Virus record (IMG/VR): IMGVR_UViG_3300030328_002122
Location: 62,366-126,365 of that record
Strand: one strand, 5' to 3'
Source of the DNA: a virus
Length of the DNA stretch: 64,000 nt
In this document: positions 13,689 through 55,925 of the stretch, piece by piece
Layout of the letters: every line of letters starts with the position of its first letter
Position numbering within the stretch: position 1 is the stretch's first letter
Program-made: the position numbers and the translations under genes
Notes under the pieces: generated by a model
What the model was told of the DNA's origin: nothing
What the model saw: only the letters and a program-made list of their open reading frames with translations
Databases searched by the model: none

Positions 13689-14861
13689 ATGATTATAGAA
13701 GAAGATACCAAACTAGATTTTTCTGATGTATTAATCAGACCAAAAAGATCAACTCTTAAATCAAGAAAACAAGTAAATTTATTTAGAACTATGGACTTTA
13801 GAAATGCTAAAGGACATGATAGACGTTTTTATGGAATACCTATTATTGCATCTAATATGGATGGTGTAGGTACTATGGAGATTGCAGATATTTTAGCTTC
13901 AGAAAGAATGTTTAGTTGTCTAGTTAAAACATATAATACAAATGAATTAGTTGAATATTTTGATGCAGATGTATTAGGACAAGATGCATTTGATATATAT
14001 CCAATGAGAACTGAACACGTTGCAATGTGTATTGGTGCAACTGAAGAAGAATATCTAAAGTTCAGAGATGTTTATGAACTTACTGATGGTAAAATAAAAT
14101 ATTTGTGTGTTGATGTTGCAAATGGTTACACAGAAATGTTTAGTAACTTTATATATAATATAAGATCTAATCATCCAGAATTAGTCATTATTGCTGGTAA
14201 TGTTGTAACAGCAGATATGACACAAGAACTAATATTAAATGGTGCAGATATAATAAAAGTTGGTATTGGGCCTGGTTCTGTTTGTACAACAAGAGTTCAT
14301 ACTGGAATTGGTTATCCACAACTATCTGCAATTATAGAATGTGCAGATGCAGCTCATGGTTTAGGTGGTCATATTATTGCAGATGGTGGTTGTACTACAA
14401 GTGGTGATATTGCAAAAGCATTTGGTGGTGGTGCAGATTTTGTTATGTTAGGGGGTATGTTTGCTGGACATGATGAAGGTGGTGGAGAAATAATTTCTAC
14501 AGAACATATTACTAGTGAAATAAAAAATGTTAATAGAGGCTCACCTTTGTTTGTTGAAGGTCAAGAAGCACATAGGGAAACTAAAAAAAGACAAATGATT
14601 CATTTTTATGGAATGAGTTCTACGATTGCAAATGATAAACATTTTGGTGGGTTAAAAGATTATCGTGCAAGTGAAGGTAAAGAAGTTATGATACCTTACA
14701 AAGGCCCTATTAAAGATACCATACAACATATACTTGGTGGATTGAGATCTACTTGTACTTATGTTGGTGCAAAACAAATAAAACACTTGACAAAGTGTAC
14801 AACATTTGTTAAAGTAAACAAAACCCATAATACAATATTTGGAGATTCTAATGGAAGGTGA
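13689..14861 (+). CDS. guaC: GMP reductase (IMPDH/GMPR family)
   Basis: 390 residues, a full TIM barrel. LDFSDVLIRPKRSTLKSRK opens it. The active-site loop is GIGPGSVCTTRVHTGIGYPQ with catalytic C199, and the phosphate-binding segment is ADGGCTTSGDIAKAFGGGAD. GPGSVCTTR plus the lack of CBS domains favours GMP reductase (GMP to IMP, NADPH) over IMP dehydrogenase. It would recycle host guanine nucleotides toward adenine nucleotides, useful for an AT-rich genome (inference). It overlaps mazG by 11 bp. Confidence 0.9.
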   Translation: MIIEEDTKLDFSDVLIRPKRSTLKSRKQVNLFRTMDFRNAKGHDRRFYGIPIIASNMDGVGTMEIADILASERMFSCLVKTYNTNELVEYFDADVLGQDAFDIYPMRTEHVAMCIGATEEEYLKFRDVYELTDGKIKYLCVDVANGYTEMFSNFIYNIRSNHPELVIIAGNVVTADMTQELILNGADIIKVGIGPGSVCTTRVHTGIGYPQLSAIIECADAAHGLGGHIIADGGCTTSGDIAKAFGGGADFVMLGGMFAGHDEGGGEIISTEHITSEIKNVNRGSPLFVEGQEAHRETKKRQMIHFYGMSSTIANDKHFGGLKDYRASEGKEVMIPYKGPIKDTIQHILGGLRSTCTYVGAKQIKHLTKCTTFVKVNKTHNTIFGDSNGR

Positions 14862-46215: not shown

Positions 46216-46566
46216 ATGAAAACACAAAGTGCAAAATCAAAAGGTAGAAGATTACAACAATGGGTACGTGATAAGTTAATAGAAGAACTTGACGTACATC
46301 CAGAAGATATAGAATCTCGTTCAATGGGAGCTGGTGGTGAAGATTTAATCATGGCTCGTGATGCGAGAAAGAAATTTCCATATTCTATAGAATGTAAGAA
46401 TGTGGAGAAGTTGAATGTTTGGGATGCTTATTCCCAAGCATCAGAGAACAGTAATAACTATGAACCTATAGTTGTTATGAAGAAGAATGGTAAAACTCCT
46501 CTAGTAGTAGTTGATGCCGAATATTTTATGAAAATACATCAAAAATCCCCAAAAAAAGAAAGGTAG
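46216..46566 (+). CDS. Small PD-(D/E)xK endonuclease-like protein
   Basis: 116 residues. The catalytic pattern is visible: KGRRLQQWVRDKLIEEL (N-terminal helix with the conserved E region), MGAGGEDLIM (D), then YSIECKNVEKLNVWDAY with E-x-K, followed by a Gln/Ala helix (SQASENSNNYEP). This resembles Holliday-junction-resolvase-like phage nucleases. It starts two bases after the zinc-ribbon gene and is followed four bases later by the BMP gene. Confidence 0.75.
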   Translation: MKTQSAKSKGRRLQQWVRDKLIEELDVHPEDIESRSMGAGGEDLIMARDARKKFPYSIECKNVEKLNVWDAYSQASENSNNYEPIVVMKKNGKTPLVVVDAEYFMKIHQKSPKKER

Positions 46567-46569
46567 AAA

Positions 46570-47586
46570 ATGAAACTGTTTAAAATCTTATCAGTACTAT
46601 TATTATCATTAAGTGTATCATCTGCATTTGCAGATAAATTAAAAGTTGGATTTATATATGTTGGGCCAGTTGGAGATCATGGTTGGACTTATATGCATGA
46701 TCAAGGTCGATTAATGGCCGAAAAACATTTTGGTGACGATATAACAACCACATTTGTAGAATCTGTACCAGAAGGGCCTGATGCAGAAAGAGTTATGACT
46801 CAGATGGCTTTACAAGGACATGATATTATATTTGCAACATCATTTGGTTATATGGAACAAATGTTAAATGTTGCTAAAAAATTCCCTAACATAAAATTTG
46901 AACACGCAACTGGATATAAAACTGCTGACAATATGTCAGTATATTCTTCTAAGTTTTATGAAGGAAGATATGTTCAAGGTGTTATCGCTGGACATATGAG
47001 TAAAGAAGGAAAAGCAGGATATATTGCATCATTCCCTATTCCAGAAGTTATTCGTGGTATCAATGCATTTTGGTTAGGTGCTACTTCTGTTAATCCAGAT
47101 TTTGACATAGATGTTGTGTGGGTTAATACTTGGTATGATCCTGCTAAAGAAGGTGATGCAGCCAGAGTACTAATCAATCAAGGTGCTGATATTATAACTC
47201 AACATACTGATTCAACTGCACCACTATCAGTTGCAGAAGAGATGGGTATTAAGGGTTTCGGTCAAGCATCTGATATGATTCACTTTGCACCTAATACACA
47301 ATTAACTTCCATCATAGATCAATGGGGCCCTTATTATATTAAGAGAATACAGGCTGCGTTAGATGGTACTTGGGAATCTTCTGATACTTGGGGTGGTATG
47401 GATACTGGAATGGTTGAAATGGCTCCAATGACTAATATGCCTGATAATATTGCTAAGATTGCAGTAAAAGTTGCAAATCAAATAAATGATGGTAAACTAG
47501 ATCCATTTGGTGGAGAGTTTACTGTAGGTGAACTATTAGGAATGTCTAAGTATCTTTCTGGTATAGATGCACCAAATCCTAATTAA
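46570..47586 (+). CDS. BMP-family periplasmic solute-binding protein (PnrA-like)
   Basis: 338 residues. A Sec signal peptide (MKLFKILSVLLLSLSVSSAF, cleavage after A-F-A) precedes a full type I periplasmic binding fold: KVGFIYVGPVGDHGWTYMHD, IIFATSFGYMEQM, YVQGVIAGHMSKEGKAGYIA, GADIITQHTDSTAP. This is the Bmp/PnrA family (PF02608), whose members bind purine nucleosides or related compounds and deliver them to an ABC transporter. No permease or ATPase is seen here, so it would work with a host transporter (inference). Its RBS (AAAGGTAG) is nearly the same as that of the next gene. Very likely taken from a host. Confidence 0.9.
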   Translation: MKLFKILSVLLLSLSVSSAFADKLKVGFIYVGPVGDHGWTYMHDQGRLMAEKHFGDDITTTFVESVPEGPDAERVMTQMALQGHDIIFATSFGYMEQMLNVAKKFPNIKFEHATGYKTADNMSVYSSKFYEGRYVQGVIAGHMSKEGKAGYIASFPIPEVIRGINAFWLGATSVNPDFDIDVVWVNTWYDPAKEGDAARVLINQGADIITQHTDSTAPLSVAEEMGIKGFGQASDMIHFAPNTQLTSIIDQWGPYYIKRIQAALDGTWESSDTWGGMDTGMVEMAPMTNMPDNIAKIAVKVANQINDGKLDPFGGEFTVGELLGMSKYLSGIDAPNPN

Positions 47587-47604
47587 TAATGAAAAGGGTA
47601 GAAA

Positions 47605-48084
47605 ATGAAATCGCCTGAAGAAAAACTTTGGAAAAAGGTAGGAAAAATGGAACTTGGAAATCCTGTTATAACAACTTTAGTAGGACTTGTAGTATTTTAT
47701 ATTGGCCTTAAAATGTTTTCTGGTGGAATGAAATCAATGGGAAATATGGAACATCTTACTTGGTTTTTAGGAAACCCTATCTATATGTTCTTTGGTGGAA
47801 TACTTATGACACTTGCATGGCAATCATCTTCATTATCAACTACAGCGATTATTGCATTGGTTGCTTCTGGTGCATTACCACTACCAGCTGCAGTTGCGTG
47901 TGTACTAGGTGCAAACATAGGAACAACTGGAACTATATGGTTAGCAGGATTCTTTGTATCAGATGGTTGGCCAAAAGGAGATACATTGCGAATCGCTATG
48001 GCTCATACTGGTGCAAATTTATTAATGGCACTTGCATTATTACCATTTGTAGGACATTTATCAAGGTTTTTATCTAAATTTTAG
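47605..48084 (+). CDS. Na+/phosphate cotransporter-like protein, single repeat
   Basis: 159 residues. It contains one Na/Pi-cotransporter domain (PF02690 type): GLVVFYIGLKMFSGGMKSMG, then the signature QSSSLSTTAIIALVASGALP, GANIGTTGTIW and AMAHTGANLLMALALLPF. About four membrane segments. Cellular NptA/YjbB proteins have two such repeats plus a PhoU-like tail; here only one is present, so it may dimerise or be a derived, non-transporting form. It follows the BMP gene by 18 bp with a matching AAAGGGTAG ribosome binding site and is closed by a terminator. Confidence 0.85.
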   Translation: MKSPEEKLWKKVGKMELGNPVITTLVGLVVFYIGLKMFSGGMKSMGNMEHLTWFLGNPIYMFFGGILMTLAWQSSSLSTTAIIALVASGALPLPAAVACVLGANIGTTGTIWLAGFFVSDGWPKGDTLRIAMAHTGANLLMALALLPFVGHLSRFLSKF

Positions 48085-48107
48085 TGTTTCATTTTTACCA
48101 CTATTAG

Positions 48108-48137
48108 AAAAAAGTGTCTTTCGGGGCACTTTTTTTT
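48108..48137 (+). terminator. Rho-independent terminator after Na/Pi-like gene
   Basis: AAAAAAGTG (48108-48116) pairs with CACTTTTTT (48127-48135), extended inside by T-G and C-G pairs, and runs into an eight-base T tract. Ends the primase/RNR/uptake transcription unit. Confidence 0.85.
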
Positions 48138-48147
48138 GTTTTTGAGG

Positions 48148-54483: not shown

Positions 54484-55194
54484 ATGTTTATACACGAGTC
54501 GGTAGATATACCAGAGGTATCTACAAAAAACGTCAATCGAAAAAGATTTTATGTGACACCAGAAGGTGGATTATATCCATCTATTACTACAGTACTTTCT
54601 CTTAGAAAGAAACAAGGTCTTTCAGAATGGAGAAAACGAGTCGGTGATGATGTTGCAAATTATATTGCAAGAACGGCTGCAAATCGTGGAACGAAAGTTC
54701 ACCAGATGTGTGAGGATTTTCTAAACAATAAAGAAGTAACTAAAGACAATAGAGATTTTTTACCATATTGTTTATTCACACAAATCAAAGATGTTATCAA
54801 AACAAATATAAATAATATATATGCACAAGAATGTGGATTATGGAGTGATAAATACAAAGTTGCAGGCCGAGTAGATTGCATTGCAGAGTATAACAACATT
54901 CCATCTATAATTGATTTTAAAACTTCCAAATCAGAAAGAAAAGATGATTGGAACTTAGAGTATTATATACAAGCATCTGCATATGCAGAGATGTTTGAGG
55001 AAAGAACAGGAAAACCAATAGAGCAAATTGTTATTCTTGTGGTTACAGAAGATGGTCATGTTCAAGAGTTTATTAGAAAGAAACATGAGTATTTACCTAT
55101 GCTTGTTGAAGTTATTGATGAATTTGTAATGCAATGGGAAAGAGAAGAAAATGCAAAAAATAATTCTAATAATAACATTTCTGTTAACGCTTAA
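54484..55194 (+). CDS. RecB/Cas4-family PD-(D/E)xK exonuclease
   Basis: 236 residues. PSITTVLSLRKKQGLSEWRK and RGTKVHQMCEDFL open the fold. The catalytic core is VAGRVDCIAEYNN followed by IIDFKTSK (D...D-x-K), and YYIQASAYAEMFEERTGK provides motif Q-x-x-x-Y. This is the MGME1/RecB-like nuclease family common in T4-like marine phages, probably for recombination or DNA end processing. The last 44 bp overlap the secreted protein gene that follows. Confidence 0.88.
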   Translation: MFIHESVDIPEVSTKNVNRKRFYVTPEGGLYPSITTVLSLRKKQGLSEWRKRVGDDVANYIARTAANRGTKVHQMCEDFLNNKEVTKDNRDFLPYCLFTQIKDVIKTNINNIYAQECGLWSDKYKVAGRVDCIAEYNNIPSIIDFKTSKSERKDDWNLEYYIQASAYAEMFEERTGKPIEQIVILVVTEDGHVQEFIRKKHEYLPMLVEVIDEFVMQWEREENAKNNSNNNISVNA

Positions 55195-55507
55195 TATCTA
55201 TAGTGTAAATGCACAACCCACTACTGGTTGGGTAATGAAACCAACTCAATGTGGTAATGCAGATGTTGTTATAGAAGGTCTGAAATCAGCAGGAGAAGAT
55301 CCTTTTGTTTGGATGAATGGTCGTTCTATGAGTGTAGAAGGTATATTTCTAGATACCAGATTTGTTTTAGCTATGAACACAAAAACACTTGATTGGACTC
55401 TTTTAGAGTTTACTAGAGATAATAAATTTGCGTGTGTACTAGGATCTGGTAATGGAACAATTAATATGAATACAGAAATAAATAAGAAAAAAGGTGTTGA
55501 CTTATAA
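55151..55507 (+). CDS. Small secreted protein of unknown function
   Basis: 118 residues. A clear Sec signal peptide (MQKIILIITFLLTLNIYSVN, cleavage after N-A) starts within the exonuclease gene. The mature part has TTGWVMKPTQCGNADVVIEG and WTLLEFTRDNKFACVLGSG, with two cysteines that could form a disulfide. A periplasmic protein made by the phage; the role is unknown. It lies directly before the tmRNA promoter. Confidence 0.7.
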   Translation: MQKIILIITFLLTLNIYSVNAQPTTGWVMKPTQCGNADVVIEGLKSAGEDPFVWMNGRSMSVEGIFLDTRFVLAMNTKTLDWTLLEFTRDNKFACVLGSGNGTINMNTEINKKKGVDL

Positions 55508-55527
55508 TATTCTATATGTTATAAATA
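55497..55527 (+). promoter_or_regulatory. Promoter of tmRNA, sigma70-type with late-like octamer
   Basis: TTGACT (55497-55502), 17 bp, TATAAA (55520-55525), which is also part of a perfect TATAAATA (55520-55527). The predicted RNA start is about 55532. Confidence 0.7.
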
Positions 55528-55531
55528 AGGT

Positions 55532-55925
55532 ACAGTTTGTTGATACGAATTGATGTTTGGATAGGACTTGGGGGCAGTACCCAACGCCTCCACCATAGAC
55601 ACACTAGGTTTTGGTATATCAATTGATATATAACCATACCTTTGTACACAATGGTTAACATCATCTGATCGGAAGGTAGGATCAGCTAGTGTGTCTTTGA
55701 TGGGGGCGAAATAGGATCGACTAACAAATGAATATGAGAGTAGAACTGTCGCATGACCTCGTTATCGGTCAAAACAAATAAGTGCAAACAATAATTTTGC
55801 GCCTGTAGATTTCGCCATAGCGGCTTAATCGTACTGAGTTTTGGTGGTGTACTTGGAAACAGAAACACCACTACATGAATAGGGTCACTACTTAATAGGT
55901 GCGTGTGGAGTCATGGTTAACTCCA
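55532..55925 (+). ncRNA. ssrA: tmRNA (ssrA), circularly permuted two-piece form
   Basis: The acceptor piece comes first and ends CGCCTCC-A-CCA at 55585-55595, preceded by a T arm (TTGGG 55568-55572, CCCAA 55580-55584). The coding piece starts GGGGGCG at 55702 and pairs with the acceptor end in a 7-bp stem whose third pair is G-U, the alanine identity element. The tag frame (55784-55825, stop TAA at 55826) reads A-N-N-N-F-A-P-V-D-F-A-I-A-A, ending in AA as proteolysis tags do. The order acceptor then coding is the alphaproteobacterial arrangement. The outer ends (55532, 55925) are approximate. It would rescue stalled ribosomes and tag proteins. Confidence 0.93.
55597..55696 (+). repeat. Inverted repeat closing the tmRNA intervening segment
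   Basis: AGACACACTAG (55597-55607) and its perfect complement (55686-55696) bracket the spacer that separates the acceptor and coding pieces (55596-55701). The stem would extend the acceptor helix of the precursor and is probably removed during maturation. Confidence 0.85.

Follow-up and report, generated by a model that had tools for sequence, protein, structure and literature searches.

A phosphate-gene slot beside a predicted purine-binding protein gene in a T4-like phage, and a one-repeat Na+/phosphate protein with two likely translation starts

We analysed a window of 64,000 nucleotides, which spans bases 62366-126365 in a virus record of 145 kb. The record is T4-like: it carries a B-family DNA polymerase, T4 RNase H and RNR by Pfam and PHROG matches, and genes that we read as portal-, protease-, scaffold- and capsid-like, structural names that are our own reading. 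The two genes of interest here, BMP and NaPi, sit inside this phage genome; all the phage genes just named lie on the same record. By DNA polymerase the closest isolate is the Methylophilales phage Melnitz (78%), which like the window phage has a permuted tmRNA and ThyX. A tblastn search of all phage records found neither BMP nor NaPi in Melnitz, for which the accessory genes mazG, phoH and hsp20 have been named (PMC9004378). The tmRNA gene of the window (55493-55919) is permuted and of the alphaproteobacterial type (RF01849, 116 bits; RF04321, 105 bits; tag ANNNFAPVDFAIAA); the two-piece tmRNA of its relative Melnitz, with a glutamine riboswitch, is already described (PMC9004378).

The BMP and NaPi open reading frames are both intact, on the + strand and 18 bp apart. 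Their features and borders, in window coordinates, are:

46216-46566, + strand: small PDDEXK/RusA-like nuclease gene (PHROG 244, 1.7e-22), left border of the variable slot
46559-46563, + strand: Shine-Dalgarno (SD) AAAGG of the BMP gene
46570-47586, + strand: BMP/PnrA-family periplasmic protein, 338 aa, predicted to bind purines (PF02608; 3s99, 445 bits; pocket residues)
46570-46632, + strand: predicted signal peptide MKLFKILSVLLLSLSVSSAFA (sequence reading; similar N-termini among relatives)
47587-48104, + strand: exchangeable slot, holding NaPi in the window, a PiT-like permease in L001, L169 and L171, and PstS in L002 and L003
47593-47597, + strand: SD AAAGG of the long NaPi form
47605-48084, + strand: one-repeat Na+/phosphate cotransporter, long form, 159 aa, with a basic N-terminal extension (PF02690)
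47634-47638, + strand: internal SD AAAGG for a second start (SD counts, Lys codon choice)
47647-48084, + strand: putative short NaPi form, 145 aa, from Met15 (Met15 conserved; charge analysis)
48105-48138, + strand: terminator-like hairpin of 15 pairs, right border of the slot, near-identical in L001 and L002

The original prediction described two neighbouring uptake genes, for purines and for phosphate, in a T4-like phage, and the open reading frames, the Pfam matches and the surrounding phage genes support it. The terminator that it placed after the pair is there as the hairpin at 48105-48138, and its intact BMP signal peptide holds up as well: MKLFKILSVLLLSLSVSSAFA/DK can be read from the sequence and relatives keep similar N-termini. 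It had also called the ribosome-binding sequences of the two genes the same and unusual. Both are present, at 46559-46572 and at 47593-47607; in the first, the TAG belongs to the preceding gene as its stop codon. Their AAAGG part is nothing out of the ordinary: an ATG follows AAAGG 32 times where chance predicts 27.

The BMP protein matches PF02608 over nearly its full length (residues 24-293; 184 bits, cut-off 24.1) and is under purifying selection (dN/dS ~0.13 versus L001). Viral contigs hold 217 relatives. Cellular relatives are encoded with their own ABC genes, whereas in the window no ABC permease or ATPase gene of a BMP system lies beside BMP.

What might this protein bind? The closest solved proteins are 3s99, a BMP-family purine-binding protein of Brucella modelled with adenine (63% identity to the window BMP), and AtzT (6pi5, 54% identity). 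Both share with it an export signal and the same pocket positions. Nine positions of the AtzT guanine pocket have been named (PMC6834077), and a single offset puts all nine named residues onto the AtzT sequence. At each of these the phage protein has the same residue as 3s99 (W39, S91, F92, R133, E159, G163, W188, H212 and D214), W39 and W188 being the stacking residues, and differs from AtzT at five of them, with D214 where AtzT has Asn. Because the overall identity to 3s99 is 63%, we take this match as supportive and not as decisive. Each pocket residue is kept in 71 to 82 of 82 viral BMP copies; those that depart from the pattern form a divergent subgroup or, at 55-57% identity, carry Glu in place of Gly. 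The nearest sampled cellular relative, from Paroceanicella, shares one gene run with its ABC permeases and two deaminases, for guanine and for 8-oxoguanine, and the ABC genes of the Ruegeria relative adjoin xdhC. Pocket residues and purine-operon neighbours both lend support to the predicted purine uptake, and a purine base is the best-supported ligand. The BMP family is broad, and the protein might instead take nucleosides, vitamin B6 or a sugar; a B6 model matches it weakly, at 57.6 bits where the cut-off is 400. Given the 3s99-like pocket and the purine-operon neighbours, we consider such a ligand improbable.

Other BMP copies show further arrangements. In eight contigs divergent (~55%) BMP copies are directly followed by a 2OG-Fe(II) oxygenase gene (L093, 4028-6462, with PF03171/PF14226; L193, L194, L200, L201, L221, L228 and L229), whose product perhaps modifies an imported base. 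A second BMP type, 25-30% identical and with other pocket residues, lies 1-2 kb upstream of NaPi in L117, L127, L129 and L130 and adjoins the first BMP in L073; it likely has a different ligand.

NaPi matches PF02690 in a single repeat (60.4 bits, cut-off 29.1). It had been predicted to be a half-size Na/Pi protein with QSSS and GANIGTT motifs, and so it is: the transport-relevant motifs are conserved among relatives, with Q73, S74, S75, S76, G102, A103, N104, G106, T107 and T108 invariant in 30 copies. Type II cotransporters of the SLC34/NptA kind (PF02690) share both motifs, and the phage protein aligns to either repeat of SLC34A2a. They differ in having two inverted repeats per chain, whereas the phage protein has one repeat (about 145-159 aa) and two conserved starts. 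Because only one repeat was found where the canonical cotransporter has an inverted pair, we regard NaPi as a half-size relative. Cellular PF02690 open reading frames, in the one family sampled and apart from short or fragmentary ones, are 326-755 aa long; plasmid records gave no match to NaPi, and viral contigs hold 279 relatives. Matches also occur in 'Flavobacteriales' and 'Chloroflexi' MAGs, on contigs that look phage-like by some of their neighbours and are likely mis-binned. Within the cellular family sample and the plasmid and viral data searched, the one-repeat form appears to be phage-specific. It is under purifying selection (dN/dS 0.10 versus L033; lower still for the core versus L085). 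Foldseek searches with an AlphaFold monomer (pLDDT 79) gave no match in PDB or BFVD, so we take its fold from the sequence.

The slot that holds NaPi is variable. Across the sister group the order nuclease-BMP is constant and the gene that follows varies. L001 and L002 are 98.9% identical until ~45 nt beyond the BMP stop and 96.7% identical after the stop of the cargo gene, and the cargo genes between these sharp junctions are unrelated. The nuclease gene of the window has ~90% identical DNA in these two sister phages. In all six sister-group contigs seen, the slot beside BMP holds a phosphate gene, from three unrelated families. The permease of L001, L169 and L171 is a divergent protein of 319 aa that scores 13.6 bits against PiT PF01384, under the cut-off of 33.7. 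Its sole PDB profile match is TmPiT 6l85 (E 0.0029), which is also the top Foldseek match (probability 1.00, E 0.0076) of its low-confidence model (pLDDT 49.5); we use the fold match of this poor model solely together with the profile match. The PstS-like gene of L002 and L003 scores 134 bits (4.7e-39) against TIGR02136, under the cut-off of 206.6, and 131 bits against PF12849, over the cut-off. By sequence, the three unrelated proteins found in this one slot are all best assigned to phosphate uptake. We propose that the slot holds a single gene for phosphate uptake, which sister phages swap by recombination.

A count over 45 contigs found NaPi in 17, PiT in 20 and PstS in 4, and NaPi and PiT never together. 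This exclusion is only suggestive because the contigs were fetched by these genes; gp43-seeded viral contigs, which are too short, were left out of the count. In RNR- and RNase H-seeded censuses, only the closest sister group has BMP together with a phosphate gene at this slot. Phages are known to carry nutrient-uptake genes; for phosphate these are mainly PstS, in cyanophages. The slot resembles the cyanophage case as phage-borne phosphate uptake, with a PstS-like gene in the identical position of L002 and L003, but differs in that NaPi and PiT, non-homologous proteins, alternate with it.

The original prediction went further and saw in BMP and NaPi one co-acquired cassette. The two genes are indeed adjacent, on the same strand and share one terminator, and the expectation that the pair would turn up in other viral contigs holds for L033 (in reverse order) and L327. 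Elsewhere, however, each gene usually occurs alone, as both commonly do in marine viral contigs, and the sister phages hold BMP but have PiT or PstS alongside; these are the independent, unrelated insertions that speak against a cassette. In a BMP tree, a quick version with eight cellular sequences, the L033 protein is distant from that of the window, so the two pairs look independent. BMP and NaPi have insertion sites in common downstream of gp23, between Hsp20 and gp43, after ThyX and at the nuclease-RNase H site, and one further site is common to NaPi and PiT. Joint acquisition and inheritance is thus very improbable. Could the neighbourhood be a coincidence, a chance meeting in T4-like insertion hotspots rich in accessory genes? 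The same sites also carry cupredoxin, IMPDH/GMPR, Fe-S carrier and 2OG-oxygenase genes, and BMP and NaPi occupy at least four common sites each without the other. Chance would nevertheless have to account for phosphate genes of three unrelated families beside BMP throughout the six sister-group contigs, and for the further adjacencies of BMP and a phosphate gene in L004, L033, L093, L195, L229 and L327. We regard coincidence as somewhat unlikely, though a good deal likelier than a cassette. Because the pairing recurs with different phosphate genes, its functional side survives, and a functional link between a purine binder and some phosphate transporter is plausible.

Several of these neighbourhoods hold other genes. 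In L327 (85-2888), a contig of 3.8 kb assigned to a Flavobacteriales MAG, an ammonium-transporter-like gene, BMP and NaPi lie in a row; the first gave matches to phrog_33847 as well as to one gene of viral contig L153, and the row is possibly a phage nitrogen-purine-phosphate island. In L033 (4114-5880), OMP decarboxylase (PF00215), a DHO-dehydrogenase-like gene (PF01180, 51 bits) and NaPi lie in a row, followed by BMP, which joins pyrimidine, phosphate and purine genes. The same hotspots repeatedly hold a gene that by our reading is class II aaRS-like (AsnRS/asparagine-synthetase-like), in many cases next to BMP or the PiT-like gene (L004, L033, L093, L191 and L194; G000, 54670-55488, outside the window). 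The window also has an IMPDH/GMP-reductase gene (13689-14861; PF00478, 233 bits), homologues of which directly precede NaPi in L326 (3979-4962) and fill the nuclease-RNase H slot in L416 and L419.

A third AAAGGTAG-type site, overlooked in the original prediction, lies within NaPi at 47634, before an in-frame ATG at 47647. We compared the start sites of 49 distinct NaPi proteins, scoring as strict SDs those with a four-base match; these sequences are related, and their kinship inflates the significance of the counts. Every distinct copy has an ATG at the position of the window's Met15, after a short basic stretch. A strict SD precedes this internal ATG in 44 of the 49 copies. Among other internal ATGs, 28 of 419 in the window and 369 of 4230 in the remaining genes of these loci have one, or 7-9%. 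The strict four-base SD is missing in the other five, clearly so in one (L102), and the divergent copies L326 and L327 keep an SD (AAGGA and GAGGA) despite different residues. Codon choice is skewed: at the Lys whose codon supplies the SD, 39 copies have AAG and 4 have AAA, while at the preceding Lys 31 have AAA and 10 have AAG; the background ratio of AAG to AAA in Lys-Val pairs is 21 to 75 for the window and 323 to 579 for genes nearby.

The upstream start is conserved as well, with an in-frame ATG in 48 of the 49 copies and a strict SD there in 22. In the extension between the two starts, Leu at -7 is present in 47 of 49 copies through four codons and Val at -3 in all 49 through three. Third codon positions are the most variable in the extension, and the DNA farther upstream has no such period. 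Because Leu and Val are kept through several codons while third positions vary most, we conclude that the extension is translated. Two NaPi starts are well supported by these sequence comparisons, and the conservation of the second one points to two forms, one long and one short, which refines the original idea of a homodimer. A parallel in mechanism only is lambda holin S (S107/S105), in which a dual start a few codons apart alters the N-terminal charge.

How might two forms work together? We assigned loops by our own analogy with two-repeat SLC34 proteins, taking three crossings and one re-entrant hairpin per repeat. The mean charge bias is then +3.8 for the short form and -0.6 for the long form (27 copies with an extension of at least nine residues). 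Because of these charged loops the short form should favour N-out, and in the long form this preference should be cancelled or reversed. Reading from two starts would yield a long form whose N-terminus carries +3 to +6 and is predicted to face inward (N-in), and a short form whose acidic N-terminus is predicted to lie outside (N-out). An antiparallel pair of the two would rebuild the inverted-repeat SLC34 core and drive Na+-dependent Pi uptake; NaPi would do so on its own, apart from BMP. Antiparallel dimers of small proteins are known from EmrE-type dual-topology transporters, a likeness of mechanism with no sequence relation. That two products of opposite topology form an antiparallel pair of half-transporters is the least directly supported step. 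We put forward tentatively, at somewhat less than an even chance, that in marine T4-like phages a one-repeat SLC34-type gene yields two products that form a working Na+/Pi pump with start-set orientation, an extant half-size version of an inverted-repeat transporter, and that this gene alternates in its slot with two unrelated phosphate genes.

The main rival to the long-short pair is a dual-topology homodimer. NaPi might be made in a single form, short or long, with the other start unused, and act as an EmrE-like homodimer or with a host protein as partner. Many small dual-topology transporters use one start (EmrE, Fluc), which counts for this reading, as does the strict SD at the upstream start in only 22 of 49 copies. 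That proportion is normal, however, given strict SDs at 28 of 52 genuine starts in the window. An unused upstream start also sits poorly with an extension conserved as protein (Leu at -7 and Val at -3, through several codons), and an unused internal one with an SD retained against codon bias. A single form is in our view rather unlikely, and we prefer the pair of long and short forms.

Taken together, these results suggest, for this marine T4-like phage, a nutrient-scavenging island in which BMP serves purine import, the slot beside it holds a swappable phosphate gene, and NaPi, where present, would act as a two-start antiparallel pump; we think this explanation as a whole slightly more probable than its negation. 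BMP would be secreted to the periplasm, bind purine bases and deliver them to the host's own BMP-type ABC permease. With no permease alongside the phage copy, we infer that it must use that of the host. Purines and Pi would then feed phage DNA synthesis; RNR, ThyX and IMPDH/GMPR are all encoded by the window phage.

The original prediction also suggested that the pair is new in a T4-like phage, and our searches agree. There is no PHROG family for BMP or NaPi, and neither NaPi nor PiT has a match among annotated phage records, so that NaPi is in no annotated phage isolate. The only BMP matches among phage records are human-gut 'Bacteriophage sp.' fragments, which we set aside as unannotated and 23-42% identical. 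A literature search of partial coverage gave no description of BMP or Na/Pi (or PiT) as a phage gene.

Among near-identical phages, three unrelated predicted solutions to phosphate uptake swap in one slot beside a gene for purine scavenging, so that one can test directly whether the supply of phosphate and purines is under selection during infection. Small dual-topology proteins are regarded as the ancestors of inverted-repeat transporters. If the two-form reading of NaPi is true, this conserved SLC34 relative of half size, with its second start built in, would lend itself to testing how inverted-repeat transporters originated, and its length of about 145-159 residues would make it easy to express and dissect.
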